Position numbers and translations under genes: made by a program. The notes beneath the pieces are model-generated. The model searched no databases. It was given only the letters and a program-made list of their open reading frames with translations, and was not told the DNA's origin. This document shows positions 47,853-55,878 of a stretch of 64,000 nucleotides of DNA, in pieces. How positions within the stretch are numbered: position 1 is the first letter of the stretch; every line of letters starts with the position of its first letter. This stretch comes from Fibrobacter sp. (GTDB lineage Bacteria; Fibrobacterota; Fibrobacteria; Fibrobacterales; Fibrobacteraceae), in assembly GCA_017526585.1 (NCBI GenBank), contig JAFXRC010000028.1:1-64000 (forward strand), read 5' to 3'.

Positions 47853-48206
47853 ATGAAGACATCTAGCTTTCTTTCTGGACTTGCCGTTGGTGCTGTAGCT
47901 GCTATTGCCATTACTAAGAAACTGAAGGCCCTTTGTGCAGATGAAGATGATTCTTGCGGTTGTGAAAATGATGCGGCATTGAAGGACGCGGAAAGCACGG
48001 TCCAGAGTCTTCGTAGTTCTGCCGATAGTTTGCTGAATGACCTTAAGACACAGACCGAAGCAAAGCAGACCTATGCTGCTCAGTGCGAAGACCTCAAGGA
48101 TGAGGTCGCAAAGAAAAATGCTGAAATTGAAAATCTAAAGAACATCTGCGACAAGCAGGCTGGTGAAATCAGCAAGCTCGAAGCAGAACAGGCTGCCAAG
48201 TCTTAA
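47853..48206 (+). CDS. Small YtxH-like membrane-anchored coiled-coil protein
   Basis: The 117-residue protein has one short glycine/alanine-rich transmembrane segment (about 6-21, FLSGLAVGAVAAIAI) followed by a Cys-containing spot (DDSCGCEN) and a long charged coiled coil (about 40-115). This resembles YtxH-like proteins of other bacteria, whose function is mostly unknown. It has a good ribosome site (CCAAGGAG). It converges on the RpiB-like gene with 17 bases between and no clear terminator. Confidence 0.75.
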   Translation: MKTSSFLSGLAVGAVAAIAITKKLKALCADEDDSCGCENDAALKDAESTVQSLRSSADSLLNDLKTQTEAKQTYAAQCEDLKDEVAKKNAEIENLKNICDKQAGEISKLEAEQAAKS

Positions 48207-48223
48207 TTGATGATGGGGTGGCT

Positions 48224-48661
48224 TTAGGCCGGTTCAAACATGTCGATACGGACCTTGTGCTTGCCGCCCATGAAATCCGTCTCAAGGAACTTCTTCGTAA
48301 TCTCCTCGCAGAGCTCGTAGGAGATGATGCGTGCGCCCATGCACAGCACGTTCGCGTCGTTGTGCAGGCGCGTAAACTCGCTGGACTTGAGGTCGCCGCA
48401 GACGGCCGCGCGGATGCCCTTGCGCTTGTTCGCCGCCATGCTCATGCCGATGCCCGTGCCGCAGATGAGGATGCCGCAGTCGGCCTCCTTCGAGATCACC
48501 TTGTCGCACACCTTGTTGGCGTAGACGGGGTAGTCGCACGATTCCGTGGAGTCGGTACCCATGTTCAGGACGGTGTAGCCCTGCTTCTGGAGGTACTCCC
48601 TCAGCTTTTCCTTGTATTCGTAGGCGGCGTGGTCGCAGCCGATGGCGATGGTCTTGAACAT
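48224..48661 (-). CDS. rpiB: Ribose-5-phosphate isomerase B family protein
   Basis: The 145-residue protein matches RpiB/LacAB in full length. Catalytic Cys67 is in CGTGIGMSMAANK, with His11 in GCDHAAY and His100 in RLHNDANVLCMGAR. RpiB interconverts ribose-5-phosphate and ribulose-5-phosphate, but related enzymes act on other sugar phosphates. It is last in a three-gene minus-strand unit, 16 bases after the cytidylyltransferase. The unit has third positions almost all G or C, unlike neighbours, suggesting separate origin. Ribulose-5-phosphate is the precursor of CDP-ribitol in teichoic acid synthesis, so a cluster-specific role is possible. Confidence 0.9.
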   Translation of the reverse strand: MFKTIAIGCDHAAYEYKEKLREYLQKQGYTVLNMGTDSTESCDYPVYANKVCDKVISKEADCGILICGTGIGMSMAANKRKGIRAAVCGDLKSSEFTRLHNDANVLCMGARIISYELCEEITKKFLETDFMGGKHKVRIDMFEPA

Positions 48662-48677
48662 TTCGTGGCTCCTGGTG

Positions 48678-49394
48678 TTACGAGTTGAACAGGTCCTCTT
48701 CGCTGAACTTCATCAGTGACTTGCACAGGGGTATGTCCTCCTTGCGCGTGATCTTGATGTTGTTCGTGAAGCCCTTCGAGAAGTAAATGCGCTTGCCGTA
48801 GTAGATGGCGACGAGGTCCGCGTAAATGAAGTCGTGCTTGTCGTCCCTTTCCGCCTGCTCGTAGAGCTCGCGGATGAACTGGTAGTTGTACGCCTGCGGG
48901 GTCTGCACGCGCATGATGGCGCTGCGGTCGAGCTCCTTGTCGCCGCTCTTGCCGTCCTCGGTGAACAGCACCGTCTCGTGGCAGGGGATGGCGAGCGAGG
49001 CGTTGCCCTTCTCGTGCGAGACCTTGAGCATCTCGTTGATCGCCGCCTGCGGAAGGATCGGGCGCGCCGCGTCGTGGATGACGACCTGGTCGCCATCGTC
49101 GAGCTTGTCGCGCAGGAAGAAGATGCCGTTGCGGGTGGAGTCGTGGGAGGTCTCGCCGCCGGCGACGACCCACTTCACCTTGGTGATCTTGTATTCGTCG
49201 AGGATCTCCTTCAGGTGGTCGATCCAGTCCTCCACGCACACGATGAGGATGCTGTCGATGTTCTCGTTCTTCTGGAAGTTCTCGAGCGTGTAGACGATGA
49301 CGGGCTTGTCGTTGAGGGAGAGGAACTGCTTGGGCATCGCGCCGCCCATGCGCTTCCCGACACCGCCCGCGAGGATGATTGCGACGTGCTTCAT
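48678..49394 (-). CDS. IspD/TarI-family cytidylyltransferase
   Basis: The 238-residue protein has the nucleotide-binding ILAGGVGKRMGGAMPKQFL motif, HDAARP and later TPQAYNY segments of the IspD/TarI fold. IspD acts in isoprenoid synthesis, while TarI/Bcs1 makes CDP-ribitol and relatives activate other alcohols for surface polymers. Because it sits in a unit with a PLP enzyme and RpiB, opposite flippase and LicD genes, a surface-glycan role is more likely than MEP-pathway IspD. The substrate cannot be told from sequence. It starts two bases after the PLP enzyme's stop, with GGAGGG as ribosome site. Confidence 0.85.
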   Translation of the reverse strand: MKHVAIILAGGVGKRMGGAMPKQFLSLNDKPVIVYTLENFQKNENIDSILIVCVEDWIDHLKEILDEYKITKVKWVVAGGETSHDSTRNGIFFLRDKLDDGDQVVIHDAARPILPQAAINEMLKVSHEKGNASLAIPCHETVLFTEDGKSGDKELDRSAIMRVQTPQAYNYQFIRELYEQAERDDKHDFIYADLVAIYYGKRIYFSKGFTNNIKITRKEDIPLCKSLMKFSEEDLFNS

Positions 49395-49395
49395 G

Positions 49396-50463
49396 CTATA
49401 CTCCCTCCGGGACGTCGATCTGTACGAGTTCCTTCATGAACATTTCCATGTACTTCCTGTCCCAGATGGTGACGCGCAGGAACCCGGCGGAGTCGCCCTT
49501 GCCGCAGAAGATCAGGATGCCGCGGTTCTTGAGCTCGTCGGTGATGTACTCGGCGGTCCTGTGCTTCGGCGTGATGCAGATGAAGCATCCTTCCGTCGGG
49601 ATGTAGGAGTAGCCGGTCTTGTCGAGGGCCTCGAGCAGGCACTTCTTGCCGCCCTCGAACTTCTCGGTGAGTTCCTTCACGACGCGGTCGTAGTTCGCGA
49701 CCATCTCCTCGGCGACGGCGAGCGCCACCGCGTTCACCGTGTAGTGCGGCTTGTAGTTGCGGATGTACTGGGCGTTTTCGGCGCTCGATATCACGACGCC
49801 CACGCGCAGCCCCGGCATCGAGAGCATCTTCGAGAACGTGCGCAGGATGACGAGGTTGTCGTATTCCTTGAGGAGCGGGAGCGCCGTCTCCTTGTGGAAC
49901 AGGTAGTAGGCTTCGTCGACGATGACGAGCGCGTTGTTAGCCTTGGCCTTGTCGAGGACCTTGCGGATCTCGTCCATGGCGTAGGCGTTGCCGATGGGCA
50001 TGTTCGGGTTCACCAGCGAGACGAGGCTGGTGCTTTCGTTGATTTCTGCGAGGAGCTTCTCGATGTCGAACGTGTAGTCCTTCTCGTAGTGGACGAACTT
50101 CGTGTTCATCCCCTGCATGTCGGCGTAGACCTTGTACATGCCGAACGTCGGGGTGACGCAGACGAGGTCCTTGCCGGGCTCGCCGAAAACCTTGATGACG
50201 TAGCCCATCGCGACGACGCTTCCGTCGGTGAGCGCGATGTTCTCGGGACCAAGTCCAATGACCTTCGCGTATTCCTCGGTGAGCCTGGATTCTTCGGGGT
50301 AGATGGAGAGGTATTCCGGCGTGACCTTCGCCATCGCCTTGTCAAAGAGCCACTGCGGGATTCCGTCGGGGTTTTCGTTCTGGTCCAGGCGAACGTATTT
50401 GCCGCGGCCTTCCGGCTGGTTGGTACGGAGGAAACTCTTGATGATCGGGTTCACGTAGTACAT
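49396..50463 (-). CDS. PLP-dependent class I/II enzyme, HisC/CobD-like
   Basis: About 355 residues from ATG 50463 (AAGGAG upstream). The fold-type I signatures are present: LDQNENPDG near the start, NPNMPIG (NPN.P.G), IVDEAYYLF with D183, the PLP lysine K212 in TFSKMLSMPGLRVG, and RVTIWDR near the end. This family includes histidinol-phosphate aminotransferase, threonine-phosphate decarboxylase (CobD) and, in Campylobacter capsule synthesis, Cj1436/Cj1437 acting on serine phosphate or dihydroxyacetone phosphate. No other his or cob gene is near, so a capsule-type amino-alcohol-phosphate role is a reasonable inference. Aminotransferase versus decarboxylase is open. Confidence 0.87.
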   Translation of the reverse strand: MYYVNPIIKSFLRTNQPEGRGKYVRLDQNENPDGIPQWLFDKAMAKVTPEYLSIYPEESRLTEEYAKVIGLGPENIALTDGSVVAMGYVIKVFGEPGKDLVCVTPTFGMYKVYADMQGMNTKFVHYEKDYTFDIEKLLAEINESTSLVSLVNPNMPIGNAYAMDEIRKVLDKAKANNALVIVDEAYYLFHKETALPLLKEYDNLVILRTFSKMLSMPGLRVGVVISSAENAQYIRNYKPHYTVNAVALAVAEEMVANYDRVVKELTEKFEGGKKCLLEALDKTGYSYIPTEGCFICITPKHRTAEYITDELKNRGILIFCGKGDSAGFLRVTIWDRKYMEMFMKELVQIDVPEGV

Positions 50464-50480
50464 TTTTGGACTCCTTGACG

Positions 50481-50495
50481 TATTGTCATACAATA
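50481..50495. promoter_or_regulatory. Operator-like inverted repeat between divergent glycan units
   Basis: TATTGT-CAT-ACAATA is a perfect 6-3-6 palindrome, 18 bases before the PLP enzyme's ATG and 71 bases before the flippase gene. It could bind a repressor controlling one or both directions, or be by chance in AT-rich DNA. Confidence 0.45.
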
Positions 50496-50565
50496 TAGTT
50501 AATTCATCGGAACTTGTTCATCTATAGATTGCCGGTGGGGTGAATAAATCTATATTTGGAAAACC

Positions 50566-52008
50566 ATGGGTAATTTAGAGTCTGATAGTAAGTTCTTGAA
50601 AAAAGCGATGATTGTGAATGTGGTGGGCACAATCCTAAAGGTTTGTGGACCGCTTCTCACATTCGTAATGGCGCGTATATTTGGTGCTGCTGAATTTGGT
50701 ATTTTCATATCGGCACAGACGCTTCTTTTGACCATTGCGCATTCGGCGACTCTTGGCCTGGATAAAGGTCTCTATTGGTACCTCCCGCAAAACAAGCTTC
50801 AAGCTCGAAAAGACTATGACGGCATTATGGAATCGTTCTGGATTTCTGCCGCCATCGCTTTGTTCTGCACGGCGGTCATTTTTGTGGGCTCCTTTACGCC
50901 GTATATTTCAAAGGAACTCCCCTGGTACGCACTGTCGTTACTATTCTATGTCGGTTCCTATGTTTTTAGTACGGCTTCCGAAGGAAATCGCCGTCCCCAG
51001 AATGCTGTTTTTGTGAATTCTTTTTTGACGGTGTCCATCGCTCCGGCGGTATCCATCGCGCTCCATTTCTTGGATATTCCTCATGCGCTTCCGTTGGGTC
51101 TTTTAGTGGGTCAAGCCGTGGGATTCTTCGTCCATTTTGTCTTGGTCCGTAGGCAGTTTCCTGAAATGCCGTTCCGCCCTGGAAAGACGGTGCCTGGTGC
51201 GCTTTTGAAGTATTCATTGCCTCTTGGTTTTGGGGAGTTCGTGTCTGCATTCCTGACGCGTTCCAGCCTTTGGATGGTGATGCTTTTCTTGGGTCCCGAA
51301 AAGGCAGGTGCCTATGGTATCATGGTAACGATTTCGAACGCACTTCAGACCATTCGCGTAGGCTTTACGCCAATCCTTACGCCTGTGGTTGCAGGGATGG
51401 ACAAGGGGCGTCTTCATACGGACTTGAAACCGGTGTATAGCTACTGCGTTTTCATGGTTACTTTTATTCAGCTGCTCATTGGTTTTTTCATTGTTCTGTT
51501 CCCAGACTTGATTTTGGGCATTGCTGGTAAGGACTTTATCGTTCAACCGGAAACTTTGGGATTTCTCTTGCTGGTCCATTTAGTGGCTGGTTTTGGTGGC
51601 ATGTCTATCGTTGTGTTGAACGGTATGGGTAAAAGCCTTTATTCGCTTATCATTGATATCGTCTCGCTGGCGGTAGCGCTGGTTTCTGGATATTTCCTGA
51701 TTCCTGCATTCGGACTTGTTGGAGCAGCGCTTTCGATGCTGACATACAACATTGTTGCCATTGTCTGTAACAACATTTATCTTTTCAAGTTGGATCTTCA
51801 GCCCTATTCACTGCGCCTTTTGCCTCAAGCGCTTTGGATTGTGGGTTTAATCGCGTTTTATATCGTTCTCAATATGGGTATTTTTACTTTGGTGTTTTGG
51901 CAGAAAGCGGTTGTATACGTGATCGTTTTAGGACTGCTTGGGCTCTATTGGAAAATTGCGAAGAAAAAGCTGGATGATGACCGCAAGCAGGCAGGAGGTG
52001 CAAAATGA
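50566..52008 (+). CDS. Polysaccharide flippase, Wzx/MATE-like family
   Basis: The 480-residue protein has about 12-14 predicted transmembrane helices and no soluble domain. The N-terminal pattern (KKAMIVNVVGTILKVCGPLL, then FGAAEFGIFISAQTLL) is typical of Wzx-type O-antigen or polysaccharide flippases, which move lipid-linked glycans across the inner membrane. It overlaps LicD by four bases and is first in a plus-strand run with LicD, a GT8-like enzyme and an LtaS-like enzyme. The lipid-linked substrate is unknown. Confidence 0.9.
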   Translation: MGNLESDSKFLKKAMIVNVVGTILKVCGPLLTFVMARIFGAAEFGIFISAQTLLLTIAHSATLGLDKGLYWYLPQNKLQARKDYDGIMESFWISAAIALFCTAVIFVGSFTPYISKELPWYALSLLFYVGSYVFSTASEGNRRPQNAVFVNSFLTVSIAPAVSIALHFLDIPHALPLGLLVGQAVGFFVHFVLVRRQFPEMPFRPGKTVPGALLKYSLPLGFGEFVSAFLTRSSLWMVMLFLGPEKAGAYGIMVTISNALQTIRVGFTPILTPVVAGMDKGRLHTDLKPVYSYCVFMVTFIQLLIGFFIVLFPDLILGIAGKDFIVQPETLGFLLLVHLVAGFGGMSIVVLNGMGKSLYSLIIDIVSLAVALVSGYFLIPAFGLVGAALSMLTYNIVAIVCNNIYLFKLDLQPYSLRLLPQALWIVGLIAFYIVLNMGIFTLVFWQKAVVYVIVLGLLGLYWKIAKKKLDDDRKQAGGAK

Positions 52009-52814
52009 AAAAGATTGAACGTGAAGAATGCCGTGAAATCCAGATGTGCATTCTAGATGAAATCGCCCGAATCTGTAACGAAAACGGACTCCACTATTAC
52101 ATTGCCTGCGGAACGCTTTTAGGCGCTGTGCGCCACAAGGGTTACATTCCTTGGGACGACGATGTTGACATTATAGTCATGCGCGATGATTACGATAAAC
52201 TCATCGCCCTATTGAAAGATGAACGCGTCAAGAAGCCTGAGTGGCTAGAAGTGATTGACGATACCCGCGATGATTATTATTACCCATTTGCCAAGGTGAC
52301 TGACAATAGGACTCTGGTTAAGATGGATAGGCACAAAGGCGATAGCGGCCTTTGGGTGGATGTGTTCCCTTATGATGGATTGCCGTCTTCGATTCCGCTT
52401 GCCAAAATCTATACCCAGATAGCCGCTTTTATCCGAGTGATTTGCCTTGCGATGGATACCGATTTTTCGTCGAAAACATTGAATGCTTGGAACCTTTTTT
52501 ACAAGTGTGTCTTGAATGCGATGACTTATGTGGTGGGACGCAAGCGCTTTTGCCGATTTGTGGAATGGTTCCACCATCGTTATGACATCAAGACTTCTAA
52601 GTATGTGACGAGTCTTTTCTTTGACAATCGTGTCGATTCGATTCTTGATAAAGAAAAATTGCTCCCGCAGACGGTTTTTAAGTTCGAAAACCGCGAGTAT
52701 ACGGGGTTTGCCAATTACGATTTTTTGCTCAAGCGAATGTATGGCGACTATATGACGCTTCCTCCCGAAGAAAAGCGTATTACTCACGATTTCTATGCTT
52801 GGTGGAAAGATTAG
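52005..52814 (+). CDS. LicD-family phosphotransferase
   Basis: The 269-residue protein has the LicD signature: YIACGTLLGAVRHKGYIPWD followed by DDVDIIVMRDDYDKL, with the acidic metal-binding cluster. LicD proteins transfer phosphocholine, phosphoethanolamine or related groups from CDP-activated donors to glycans. ATG 52005 overlaps the flippase stop. The adjacent minus-strand cytidylyltransferase could supply the CDP donor. No choline-uptake gene is visible, so phosphocholine is not assumed. Confidence 0.9.
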   Translation: MKKIEREECREIQMCILDEIARICNENGLHYYIACGTLLGAVRHKGYIPWDDDVDIIVMRDDYDKLIALLKDERVKKPEWLEVIDDTRDDYYYPFAKVTDNRTLVKMDRHKGDSGLWVDVFPYDGLPSSIPLAKIYTQIAAFIRVICLAMDTDFSSKTLNAWNLFYKCVLNAMTYVVGRKRFCRFVEWFHHRYDIKTSKYVTSLFFDNRVDSILDKEKLLPQTVFKFENREYTGFANYDFLLKRMYGDYMTLPPEEKRITHDFYAWWKD

Positions 52815-52823
52815 GAGTTCTTT

Positions 52824-53858
52824 ATGGTTAAGTACCTTTTTGTTCTGACGAGTTCCCCGAAAGATTTTTTCTGCGAACAGACACTGGTGGCGATTGCATC
52901 GCTGCGCGTGCATAACCCAGGCGCATTCGTGACGCTCTTGACCGACGACAAGACGGCGGAAACATTGACTGGTCCGCGTGCGGCCCTTAAGGATGCTGTC
53001 GATGAACTCAAGGTGCTGACGCTCGACGAAAAGTTTACGCCCATGCTGCGTTCCCGCTACCTGAAGACGGTGATGCGCAACGTGATTGACGGTGACTTCC
53101 TCTACATGGATTCCGACATCGCCATTGTGGGCGACCTCTCGATTCCTGAAGAATGGAAGGGCGGCATTTACGCGGTGCTGGACTTCCACACTAATCTTTC
53201 TAAGGCGATTAACCGCAAGAAGGTGCTGAACAACGCGAAGATGATGGGCTTCTCGCCGATTCTGAACGACGAAATTTTCAATGGGGGTGTGATGTTTGCC
53301 GCTGACACTCCCGAAGCCCGCAAGTTCTTCGAAACCTGGCACGAACTGTGGCTCTATTGCGTGTCCAAGAACTTCCCGTACGACATGGCAAGCCTCGCCG
53401 AGACGAACTTCAAGTTCGGCTACATTACCAAGAAGATGCCGGGTGGTTGGAACTGCCAGCTAGCATACGGTAACCGCTTTCTCCCGACGGCGAAGGTGCT
53501 GCACTTCTTCGGCTCGCGCATCATCGATACCCGTGGACACAAGGTGCCCGCAAGTATGGACTTGTTCTTGCCGAAAATTTTGCGCAAGGACTTCTACACC
53601 AACCTAAAGAATATTCCGGTGAAGGTCAATGCCGACAAGAGCATTACTATCAATGAATATTACGACGACGTGATTGCACATGCCAAGGAAGAATTTGAAT
53701 TCCAGACCCGCAAGGTCGGAGCCGGTGGTGCCTACATTATCCGCAGCTATGCCTTCGCGAAGTCGCTTGCTTGGATTTACAAGAAGATGCCTTTCCTCGT
53801 GTTCCCCCTGAGAGTGTTGGGGACACTTATTGGAAAGGACGATCGCGCTGTCCGTTAG
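52824..53858 (+). CDS. Glycosyltransferase, GT8-like
   Basis: The 344-residue protein has a GT-A-like nucleotide-sugar domain (about 1-250) with the YMDSDIAI motif (DxD), NGGVMF, and a HFFGSR segment near 225, features of GT8 and related glucosyl/galactosyltransferases. The C-terminus contains a hydrophobic stretch (FLVFPLRVLG). It has AGGAG at the start and lies directly before the LtaS-like gene, whose frame opens within its end. Donor and acceptor are unknown. Confidence 0.82.
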   Translation: MVKYLFVLTSSPKDFFCEQTLVAIASLRVHNPGAFVTLLTDDKTAETLTGPRAALKDAVDELKVLTLDEKFTPMLRSRYLKTVMRNVIDGDFLYMDSDIAIVGDLSIPEEWKGGIYAVLDFHTNLSKAINRKKVLNNAKMMGFSPILNDEIFNGGVMFAADTPEARKFFETWHELWLYCVSKNFPYDMASLAETNFKFGYITKKMPGGWNCQLAYGNRFLPTAKVLHFFGSRIIDTRGHKVPASMDLFLPKILRKDFYTNLKNIPVKVNADKSITINEYYDDVIAHAKEEFEFQTRKVGAGGAYIIRSYAFAKSLAWIYKKMPFLVFPLRVLGTLIGKDDRAVR

Positions 53859-53880
53859 TTTTTGTATTGAAGGAGTAGTT

Positions 53881-55878
53881 GTGCGTTTTTTGAAGAATCC
53901 CTATCTTGCGCTGGCGCTTGTCGCTCTGCTTGTGCAGACCATCCTGTTGGTGTTTTTCTACAGCCTGCCCGATCCGCTTGGACTTTCGATGTCCGAGATG
54001 TTCGAGGGCAAGACGATTTGGCAGATTTTTATGGCGTTCGGTGGCATTTTGGCCATGGCGGGGCTTTTCGGCTTTGCGCGTGCGCCTCGCGCGCTTGCCA
54101 TTTATTATGGGCTTTATTTCTTTGTGGCGATTGTGGACTATGACGTGTTCCGCTTTTCGCACCAGCGACTTTCCTATTCTTTTTTACGTACGTACTTCCA
54201 CATTTCGAACATAACCGATGCCACCACCGTTTCGACGTTGGGGGGCGACTTGCTCGGAACAGTTCTTTGGATCTCGATGGTTGTGCTCTGCTTTGTGGGG
54301 GCGATTGCCTTTGTGGTTGCCTATACGCTCCGTTTGCGCGCACACCGTCGTTCGAAAGTCCTCGATAACAGCAAAGGAGCCTGGAAGCCGGTCTCTAGAA
54401 AAGCGCCTTGGATTATGTTCGCTGTCGGTATGGCGTTGTCGCTGACTCCTCTGATGCTGTTCCTTACGGGTGCTCGCGGCTGGGGAGAAATCCCGCTTAT
54501 CCATACAAAGATTGAGTGGCGCTTTACGCTCGGTAAGCATACGCTTACGGCTCCGATTCTCCACATCGCAGCGGAGGAGACCTTTGAATTCTTCCACGAT
54601 AATACTAAAATCACCGATGAGCTGGTTGGCGATTTAGATGCTTTCTTGTCGAAGGATTTTGTGGCGGGTCGCAGTAACGCTTTGGATTTTCCCATGTACC
54701 GTAGTGCCCCGACACATGAATACAAAGCAAAAAAGCCCTACAATATCGTGTTTATTATGGGCGAATCTTTTAAAGGGCGCGTCTTCAACAAGATGCTTGA
54801 GGGCGATACTGCCGTTGCTCCAAGTGTGTTTAAGCTGGCAAGTGGCGGTTACTACGCCAAGGATTCTACGGGGAAAAGTCTAGGTGGCGGACTCTGGTTC
54901 AAGAACGCTTTTAGCGGCGGATACCCCACAGTGCGCGGCACGATGGCTACCTACATGGGCTTCCCCTCGCATCCGAACCGTGACGTTCCCAGTTTTTATG
55001 CGGCGAACAAGTTCAAGGGTTGGCCTGAATACCTGACGAATTATCAAAGAAAGTACATGACGGTATCGAACCCGATTTTCGACCACACGTTACCCTTTAT
55101 CGAAAGGTTCTTTGGCAAGAACTGGTTCATGCCTCAAGAAGAGACTGTAGAGGGCGCTAGTGACAGCATGGGCGTGGATAGGGCGCTGGAATTGCTGAAC
55201 ACTCAACCGACGGATAGTCCGTGGCTGCTTGTTTTCAATACAATCGCTTCTCATATTCCTTTCTACAACTATCCAGATGCCTTTGCGGACAAGCCCGACG
55301 ACGCCATGGTGCGTTACCGTAATGCGATTCGCTATACCGACAAGCAGCTGGGGCGTTTCTTTGACGTGCTTTCGGCCCGTCCCGATTTTGAAAATACGGT
55401 GGTATTTGTCCTGGGCGACCATGATACCCCTGTAGATTCTGTAGACTATCTGGTCCCGCAGCCGCTTGGACTTTCGGCTTCGCAAATCTTTCTTGGAATT
55501 TTCTCGGCGGATACGGCTCTCTTTAACGGGCTTACCGTTCGCGAAGATGTGGCTTCGCAGCTGGACCTGGGGCCCACGGTTTTTGACCTCTCGCAGGTGC
55601 GTGAACCGAACCATTTCTGGGGTTACGACTTGTTGACTCAGGAGCGTCCCGCAGAACAGCCCTCGGTGTTCTTCTCGCAGAATTCCTACTACTTGGGCTT
55701 CCGCGACCATGTGCTTGCTGGCGGCCTAGAAAACGAAGACGTTTACCGTGCCGTGTCCGGTGGAGAAAGCCCCTATGCACTCACGACCGATGCTACCGAC
55801 CTAGATTGGAAGAAGAAGGCTGTAGGGGCGGCGAAGGCCGTGCGCTCCGTACTCCGCAACGATATCATGATGCCGTAA
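53881..55878 (+). CDS. LtaS/sulfatase-fold phosphoglycerol transferase-like protein
   Basis: About 665 residues from GTG 53881, preceded by GAAGGAGTAGTT. Four or five N-terminal helices (to about 200) lead to an extracytoplasmic alkaline-phosphatase-fold domain: IVFIMGESFKGRVF (metal-binding Glu), SGGYPTVRG with the likely nucleophile Thr, and VFVLGDHDTP (Asp-His). These match LTA synthase/MdoB-like phosphoglycerol and phosphoethanolamine transferases. In a Gram-negative with a flippase and LicD next door, it probably adds phospho-alcohol groups to a surface glycan or glycolipid. The donor is unknown. Confidence 0.88.
   Translation: MRFLKNPYLALALVALLVQTILLVFFYSLPDPLGLSMSEMFEGKTIWQIFMAFGGILAMAGLFGFARAPRALAIYYGLYFFVAIVDYDVFRFSHQRLSYSFLRTYFHISNITDATTVSTLGGDLLGTVLWISMVVLCFVGAIAFVVAYTLRLRAHRRSKVLDNSKGAWKPVSRKAPWIMFAVGMALSLTPLMLFLTGARGWGEIPLIHTKIEWRFTLGKHTLTAPILHIAAEETFEFFHDNTKITDELVGDLDAFLSKDFVAGRSNALDFPMYRSAPTHEYKAKKPYNIVFIMGESFKGRVFNKMLEGDTAVAPSVFKLASGGYYAKDSTGKSLGGGLWFKNAFSGGYPTVRGTMATYMGFPSHPNRDVPSFYAANKFKGWPEYLTNYQRKYMTVSNPIFDHTLPFIERFFGKNWFMPQEETVEGASDSMGVDRALELLNTQPTDSPWLLVFNTIASHIPFYNYPDAFADKPDDAMVRYRNAIRYTDKQLGRFFDVLSARPDFENTVVFVLGDHDTPVDSVDYLVPQPLGLSASQIFLGIFSADTALFNGLTVREDVASQLDLGPTVFDLSQVREPNHFWGYDLLTQERPAEQPSVFFSQNSYYLGFRDHVLAGGLENEDVYRAVSGGESPYALTTDATDLDWKKKAVGAAKAVRSVLRNDIMMP

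Follow-up and report, generated by a model that had tools for sequence, protein, structure and literature searches.

Why do genes resembling hisC, ispD and rpiB lie back to back with genes for a flippase and a LicD-family enzyme, and what could their products make together? An earlier note on this DNA had proposed that the PLP enzyme makes an amino-alcohol phosphate or that RpiB feeds a pentitol branch, that the cytidylyltransferase activates the product, and that LicD and an LtaS-like protein attach it to a surface glycan. Here 'the window' refers to the whole stretch of 64,000 nucleotides that was analyzed; the host genome is Fibrobacter-like.

Seven genes in two divergent groups

ORF coordinates and profile searches of the window agree with the seven genes that the earlier note had placed here, and with most of its family labels. 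The GT8 label is weak, as PF01501 is below its cut-off, and the LtaS-like protein is clear only as a member of the Sulfatase superfamily.

48224..48661, minus strand: RpiB-type ribose-5-phosphate isomerase, 145 aa; TIGR01120 180 bits (cut-off 138.65)
48678..49394, minus strand: IspD/TarI-type cytidylyltransferase, 238 aa; NF001183 166.6 (cut-off 166)
49396..50463, minus strand: HisC-fold PLP enzyme, 355 aa from ATG 50463; TIGR01141 230.9 (cut-off 276.55)
50464..50565, no strand: divergent intergenic region; promoter-like matches on both strands (consensus only)
50566..52008, plus strand: Wzx-like polysaccharide flippase, 480 aa; PF01943 33.7 bits (cut-off 28.2)
52005..52814, plus strand: LicD-family phosphotransferase, 269 aa; PF04991 139.3 bits (cut-off 22.6)
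52824..53858, plus strand: GT-A/GT8-like glycosyltransferase candidate, 344 aa; PF01501 E=0.0048, below cut-off
53830..55878, plus strand: membrane sulfatase-fold (LtaS/OpgB-like) phosphotransferase candidate; PF00884 70.7 bits

Only 1 nt separates the PLP gene from the IspD gene, and 16 nt separate the latter from RpiB; therefore, the three look like one transcription unit, divergent from the flippase, LicD, GT8-like and LtaS-like genes. Family alignment places the start of the PLP enzyme at ATG 50463 rather than TTG 50493. Promoter-like sites, which are consensus matches only, number 5 in 48100-50700 against 0.7 expected, most of them inside or touching the divergent gap.

LicD covers its profile from 1 to 227 of 227 and is predicted to attach a CDP-activated group. 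Its one PDB sequence match is FKRP, a weak one (E=0.00017). Profile searches of the locus genes found neither LicC nor LicA, the cytidylyltransferase there being of IspD type.

Family assignment of the PLP enzyme, the cytidylyltransferase and RpiB

The PLP enzyme has HisC structures as its best fold matches and shares with HisC the PLP lysine and the cofactor-binding residues, which are invariant among 25 aligned homologues. HisC proper was nevertheless rejected; the TIGR01141 score is below cut-off, one of the two substrate-binding Arg residues (the second, in the IVRG motif) is replaced by Phe or Leu in this family, and a true hisC lies on contig C69 (333 bits, above cut-off). CobD threonine-phosphate decarboxylase was rejected too, with TIGR01140 at 142.5 against a cut-off of 290.55. 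The enzyme is predicted to be a transaminase of a keto-sugar phosphate.

The cytidylyltransferase exceeds the ribitol-5-phosphate cytidylyltransferase model NF001183 by just 0.6 bit, and the 13 best PDB matches of its AlphaFold model are all S. aureus TarI. Fold searches thus confirm the HisC and TarI folds of the two enzymes, while fold does not separate their substrates. An assignment as the MEP-pathway IspD was rejected, as TIGR00453 gives 159.5, below 181.3, and a separate ispD on contig C62 scores better (183.5 bits). The earlier note had conceded that its scheme would fall if the genome held no other hisC or ispD; a second copy of each is present. Among the genes of the window unit there is no ribulose-5-phosphate reductase of the TarJ/Bcs1 type, and the PLP enzyme is found instead. 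The predicted product of the cytidylyltransferase is a CDP-amino-alcohol.

RpiB retains the active-site residues Asp10, Cys67, His100 and Arg138 in alignment, and is best described as a ribose-5-phosphate isomerase, being above the TIGR01120 cut-off and far below that of EryPhIsonDerIRhiz. No RpiA was found in the genome, which is 81% complete, leaving RpiB as the only Rpi seen. Therefore, RpiB may be the sole ribose-5-phosphate isomerase of the genome and perhaps housekeeping, so that the earlier note's treatment of it as a pathway gene only may have been too narrow. In two other Fibrobacter strains (G002 and G022), RpiB lies beside the flippase with neither PLP enzyme nor IspD.

Conserved pairing and exchanged partners

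About 85,000 species genomes were scanned, and PLP enzyme loci were found on 40 contigs from five phyla, in rumen and gut bacteria and in methane-producing archaea. An IspD-family gene lies at most 4 genes from the PLP enzyme at every one of the 40 loci. Because the pair recurs so widely, its grouping is not by chance, and the neighbours are conserved together, as the earlier note had suggested checking. A nearby LicD is present at 29 of the 40 loci, and either LicD or a TagF/TarL-like CDP-alcohol phosphotransferase at 35. Of the loci without LicD, six are 18 kb or longer, and each of these has a TagF-like gene (PF04464, the CDP-glycerol/ribitol phosphotransferase family) 1-2 genes before the PLP gene. 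Searches of plasmids and viruses gave no matches to the cassette.

The third partner varies. RpiB adjoins the unit in Fibrobacter, Treponema and Anaerovibrio. At all three methanogen loci, in three gene orders, RpiB is replaced by the non-homologous RpiA, which is presumably housekeeping in these archaea. In Clostridia, the third partner is a split acetolactate-synthase-like enzyme. The carriers include culturable strains, namely Treponema bryantii NK4A124 and Anaerovibrio sp. JC8, with [Clostridium] symbiosum ATCC 14940 representing the variant. With such an enzyme at 17 of the 40 loci and no third partner at 8, pentose isomerization is not universal. In the IspD tree, the RpiB- and RpiA-linked copies group together, apart from the acetolactate-synthase-linked copies (99/97). 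The partners of about 350 aa of a second IspD in Treponema were expected to be TarJ, but the one examined is an SDR of the epimerase/dehydratase family; therefore, those loci are not called TarIJ.

At the same flippase-LicD locus, other Fibrobacter strains carry a different PLP enzyme (PLP2) with a LicC-like nucleotidyltransferase. LicD identity follows the module, being 78-83% in strains with PLP/IspD and 57% in strains with PLP2/LicC-like. The flippase, on the other hand, is 81-89% conserved under either module (except in strain G007, 73%), and the GT8-like protein is 94-97% conserved in most strains with either. Thus, within Fibrobacter, LicD switches together with the module, and the flippase and the GT8-like protein do not. 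The LtaS-like gene is found in strains with either module and also in strains that lack both; nothing therefore ties its product to attachment, contrary to the role that the earlier note had given it.

A putative CDP-aminopentitol route and its alternatives

If the alcohol is left unnamed, the general scheme is quite probable: the PLP enzyme would supply an amino-alcohol phosphate, which would be activated by the cytidylyltransferase and then attached by LicD. The conserved neighbourhoods, the matching of LicD to the module and the exchange of LicD for TagF/TarL-like enzymes strongly support this scheme, which the earlier note had drawn. Its own caveat, that sequence fixes the substrates of none of the enzymes, holds. 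Its two options, an amino alcohol or a pentitol, may be one and the same, as the RpiB/RpiA exchange suggests a single amino-pentitol pathway.

Gene families, their conserved linkage, the non-homologous exchanges and the matching of LicD come from computation; every substrate and product, and the step order, are inferred as follows. A horizontally spread cassette would make a CDP-activated amino-alditol phosphate and attach it to a surface glycan. RpiB (RpiA in archaea) would keep the balance of ribose-5-phosphate and ribulose-5-phosphate. The PLP enzyme would transaminate the C2 ketone of ribulose-5-phosphate to 2-amino-2-deoxy-pentitol-5-phosphate, standing in for TarJ, which would reduce the same ketone to ribitol-5-phosphate. 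With CTP, the TarI-like enzyme would form CDP-aminopentitol, from which LicD (a TagF/TarL-like enzyme at some other loci) would move aminopentitol phosphate onto a lipid-linked glycan, exported by the flippase.

This aminopentitol version is close to an even call, leaning slightly to the doubtful side. The TarI-like model score and fold, the weak FKRP match of LicD, the grouping in the IspD tree, the RpiB/RpiA linkage, the constant pairing of PLP enzyme and IspD and the switching of LicD with the module argue for it. Against it stand the possibly housekeeping RpiB, kept without PLP enzyme and IspD in two strains, the presumably housekeeping RpiA of the archaea, the loci with an acetolactate-synthase-like enzyme or no third partner, the 0.6-bit margin over NF001183 and the position of the ketone. 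HisC-type enzymes normally use ketones adjoining CH2-O-phosphate (imidazole-acetol phosphate; DHAP for Cj1437). In ribulose-5-phosphate, by contrast, the ketone is three carbons from the phosphorylated carbon. A wider proposal is somewhat less likely than not: that a so far undescribed CDP-2-amino-2-deoxypentitol, arising by transamination and not reduction of ribulose-5-phosphate, decorates glycans in Fibrobacter, Treponema, Clostridia and methanogenic archaea, with the split acetolactate-synthase-like enzyme of Clostridia supplying a different keto-sugar phosphate for a sister CDP-amino-deoxyalditol. A literature search, with most subscription journals outside its coverage, turned up no earlier description of aminoribitol phosphate, of aminopentitol phosphate or of the cassette.

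If true, an exchangeable cassette for zwitterionic amino-alditol phosphate decoration would be common to at least five phyla of microbes from rumen and gut, methanogens among them, one more CDP-alditol would join the few known, and many orphan 'hisC' and 'ispD' annotations near licD would be accounted for. The aminopentitol reading also names definite enzyme substrates (ribulose-5-phosphate and CTP) and a definite glycan to seek.

Could the PLP enzyme be a decarboxylase instead? The HisC fold is shared by CobD and probably by Cj1436 of Campylobacter jejuni. Decarboxylation of phosphoserine has been reported for Cj1436 (PMC12409886). Acting on phosphoserine or phosphothreonine, such an enzyme would give phosphoethanolamine or aminopropanol phosphate, from which the IspD-like enzyme would make CDP-ethanolamine-like donors for LicD, with RpiB as a bystander. 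The PLP2/LicC-like module at the same locus would fit, as the two modules may feed equivalent decorations. We consider this unlikely; it leaves the RpiB/RpiA and acetolactate-synthase-like partners unexplained, the CobD score is far under cut-off, and the cytidylyltransferase is of the TarI/IspD type, which is known to act on polyol phosphates, and not of the LicC/PntC type known for phosphocholine and AEP (PMC6697681). Transamination of another keto phosphate, with the remaining scheme unchanged, seems quite improbable. DHAP would yield serinol phosphate, the reported product of the PLP enzyme Cj1437 (PMC12409886), and tetrulose phosphate could come from an RpiB-family isomerase, as this family also holds erythrulose-4-phosphate isomerases, a weaker match for the window RpiB. 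However, serinol phosphate requires no isomerase, and both the window RpiB and the archaeal RpiA belong with ribose-5-phosphate isomerases. The Campylobacter parallel drawn by the earlier note stands for the PLP chemistry, which supplies amino-alcohol phosphates for capsule, but not for activation and attachment; there, serinol and ethanolamine phosphate are amide-linked to glucuronic acid and then dephosphorylated, with neither CDP activation nor a LicD step (PMC12409886).

That the three genes are ordinary HisC, IspD and RpiB copies, placed next to a glycan locus by coincidence, is very improbable, and largely refuted for the PLP enzyme and IspD. RpiB as possibly the only Rpi, and its presence beside the flippase in G002 and G022, would suit such a coincidence. 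However, the genome has a separate hisC and ispD, LicD co-varies with the module, and the PLP enzyme is carried by just 3 of the 25 genomes of the genus but is met again in other phyla. The archaea with the cassette belong to a group that makes its isoprenoids by the mevalonate route, so that IspD there does not serve this purpose.

The preferred aminopentitol route resembles the TarI/TarJ and Bcs1 pathway to CDP-ribitol (teichoic acid and Haemophilus capsule) in its TarI-like cytidylyltransferase, its likely precursor ribulose-5-phosphate and its downstream CDP-alditol phosphotransferase (LicD or TagF/TarL-like). It differs by a linked Rpi isomerase and by a PLP transaminase-like enzyme in the reductase's place, which predicts an amino group. 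In mammals, the IspD homologue ISPD makes CDP-ribitol, used by FKRP, so that the ISPD-FKTN/FKRP system likewise has an IspD-type enzyme providing a CDP-alditol for LicD-domain enzymes (PMC4873967); the cassette, unlike it, would serve a bacterial surface glycan and includes a PLP enzyme. In Lic-1 phosphocholine and Pnt (PntC) aminoethylphosphonate tailoring, too, an amino-alcohol phosphate or phosphonate is activated by a cytidylyl group before it is attached to the surface. Aminoethylphosphonate is reportedly present in the Fibrobacter outer-membrane glycan. The cassette differs from both pathways in its IspD/TarI-type cytidylyltransferase and its class I/II HisC-fold aminotransferase, the AEP transaminase being of class V. 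In T. denticola, PntC is fused with an AEP transaminase domain (PMC6697681).

The cassette and its genome

Seven genes were borne out where the earlier note had placed them, with families RpiB, IspD, Aminotran_1_2, Polysacc_synt, LicD, weak GT8, and Sulfatase, respectively.

48224-48661 (-), RpiB isomerase
48678-49394 (-), IspD/TarI-like cytidylyltransferase
49396-50463 (-), HisC-fold PLP enzyme
50566-52008 (+), flippase
52005-52814 (+), LicD
52824-53858 (+), GT8-like enzyme
53830-55878 (+), sulfatase-fold LtaS-like protein

The PLP-IspD-RpiB unit has intergenic spacings of 1 and 16 nt, and diverges from the flippase gene across 102 nt. Its GC content is 0.56-0.61 and that of the sequence on its right about 0.45-0.52, a difference that fits acquisition without proving it.

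The catalytic Lys212 and the cofactor residues are intact in the PLP enzyme, and the best fold match of its AlphaFold model (pLDDT 88.5) is HisC. The enzyme scores below cut-off both as HisC and as CobD and has lost the Arg of the HisC 'IVRG' motif, so its substrate probably differs. The 13 best matches of the cytidylyltransferase model (pLDDT 93.5) are S. aureus TarI, and RpiB keeps its active-site residues.

A housekeeping role for the PLP and IspD-like genes, which the earlier note had raised against its own scheme, is rejected because they are not the only hisC and ispD. The window's genome (81% complete) carries a second ispD on contig C62 (183.5 bits) and hisC on C69 (333 bits, above cut-off). 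RpiB, on the other hand, probably serves metabolism besides the cassette. The genus normally has RpiA as its isomerase (20 of 25 genomes), while four genomes (the window's G000, G002, G017, and G022) have RpiB with no RpiA found; since these are 62-88% complete, true absence of RpiA is likely, not certain. Both isomerases are present in G004 and G007, whose RpiB lies within the cassette. The RpiB-only genomes, in a genus that mostly has RpiA only, suggest that a cassette gene has replaced a housekeeping isomerase to which it is not orthologous.

Incidentally, the genome has a second, larger phospho-decoration cluster on C44 (~46-63 kb; L129, L130), where five further LicD genes and a HisC-like aminotransferase lie within 17 kb. 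A seventh LicD is on C68.

Partners of the PLP gene across 40 loci

Scanning genome contigs gave 40 PLP loci (51-96% identity) in Fibrobacter, Treponema, Sphaerochaetaceae, Anaerovibrio, Lachnospiraceae, Oscillospirales, Acholeplasmatales, and three Thermoplasmata archaea, the nearest homologues being in Fibrobacter succinogenes MAGs (95-96%), on which basis the window is assigned to Fibrobacter. Close orthologues (88-93%) occur in 2 of the 24 other genus genomes, where PLP-IspD-RpiB belongs to another, larger glycan cluster and precedes a gluconolactonase-like protein and a further LicD. Searches of plasmids and viral contigs gave no relatives. The cassette is sporadic and mobile.

An IspD-family gene lies within four genes of PLP at all 40 loci. 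The third partner is RpiB at 12 loci, RpiA at all three archaeal loci, each with its own gene order (recognised with TIGR00021, whose cut-off two of them exceed, while a frame break splits the third), and a split acetolactate-synthase-like TPP enzyme at 17; eight have no adjacent third partner. Because RpiA and RpiB are unrelated proteins catalysing one reaction, their exchange points to ribose-5-P/ribulose-5-P. The archaeal PLP-IspD-RpiA sets (L106, L108, L111; methanogen lineage) adjoin LicD genes in two of three, an apparent movement of surface decoration genes between bacteria and archaea.

TagF/TarL-like (PF04464) transferases use CDP-alcohol donors. So does the LicD family (PMC4873967). 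LicD is near PLP at 29 loci, and all six LicD-less loci of at least 18 kb (L084, L091, L093, L095, L100, L103) have a TagF/TarL-like gene 1-2 genes before PLP, giving 35/40 with either transferase. Of the remaining five, four are short or begin right at the end of a contig, and the fifth is archaeal L111. Surrounding genes encode glycosyltransferases, flippases, and nucleotide-sugar enzymes.

In the IspD tree, RpiB-linked, RpiA-linked, and five partnerless copies form one group (99/97), separated by a long branch from TPP-linked copies. The alignment reads 'ET ... QTPQ ... YAD' in the Rpi class versus 'PP ... ASPQ ... FTS' in the TPP class, at positions that in IspD line the substrate pocket, suggesting two related yet different substrates. 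Four loci (L078, L080, L081, L088) have a more distant IspD. Two of them have tandem IspD-family genes after PLP (L078:11077-12520, L081:2844-4287), the first with AAGQ instead of AGGxGxR as nucleotide-binding loop, as if inactive and active copies were paired.

Exchange of the presumed donor-making module

In G007, G020, G022, and G002, the same flippase-LicD locus has, instead of PLP-IspD, another PLP enzyme (PLP2, about 24% identical) and a LicC-like nucleotidyltransferase. The flippase is 81-84% identical to the window's in the PLP2 group (G020, G022, G002) versus 84-89% with the window's module (RUG10752, RUG11683), and GT8 identity is 94-96% in both groups. LicD identity, however, is 78-83% with the same module versus 57% in the PLP2 group, whose LicDs are 73-93% identical to each other. 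G007 is farther off overall (flippase 73%, GT8 83%). By these identities, the donor-making module and LicD change together while LicD's neighbours stay, matching what is predicted for a donor-specific transferase.

The LtaS-like protein, to which an attachment role had also been given, is assigned no step, because it occurs with PLP-IspD, with the PLP2 module, and with neither (G003).

Other Fibrobacter genomes encode a fused nucleotidyltransferase and aminotransferase of 604-608 aa (L062:2366-4180, L064:9449-11275, L066:8815-10635), apparently the PLP2/LicC-like pair as a single polypeptide.

Proposed pathway and the acetolactate-synthase-like partner

That the PLP enzyme makes an amino-alcohol phosphate, which is activated with CDP and transferred by LicD, as the earlier note had it, we consider probable. 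Ribitol-5-P arises when TarJ reduces the ribulose-5-P ketone, and TarI then activates it (PMC4873967, both activities). With a transaminase in the reductase's place, ribulose-5-P would yield 2-amino-2-deoxypentitol-5-P, which has the ribitol-5-P skeleton with an amine at C2 and would suit a TarI-like enzyme and a LicD or TarL-like transferase. This origin of an aminopentitol is proposed tentatively; its chief chemical difficulty is that the ketone on which enzymes of the HisC type usually act is adjacent to CH2-O-phosphate. In the literature searched, neither such a compound nor such a cassette was found described. In Clostridia, we speculate that the acetolactate-synthase-like enzyme could make another 2-keto sugar phosphate, e.g., by joining pyruvate and an aldehyde phosphate into a 1-deoxyketose phosphate.

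At 16/16 loci examined (L104:11792-13391 and 15 others, e.g., L091, L100, L112), the acetolactate-synthase-like gene next to PLP-IspD is divided into two ORFs, one of 177 aa with the PYR domain and one of ~370 aa, which overlap out of frame by ~50 nt. Inside the overlap, third-base variation drops from 2.9 to 1.2 distinct bases per codon, and the second frame has a conserved TTG with a Shine-Dalgarno-like AAAGGAGG ahead. From the sequences, this looks like dual coding with internal initiation.
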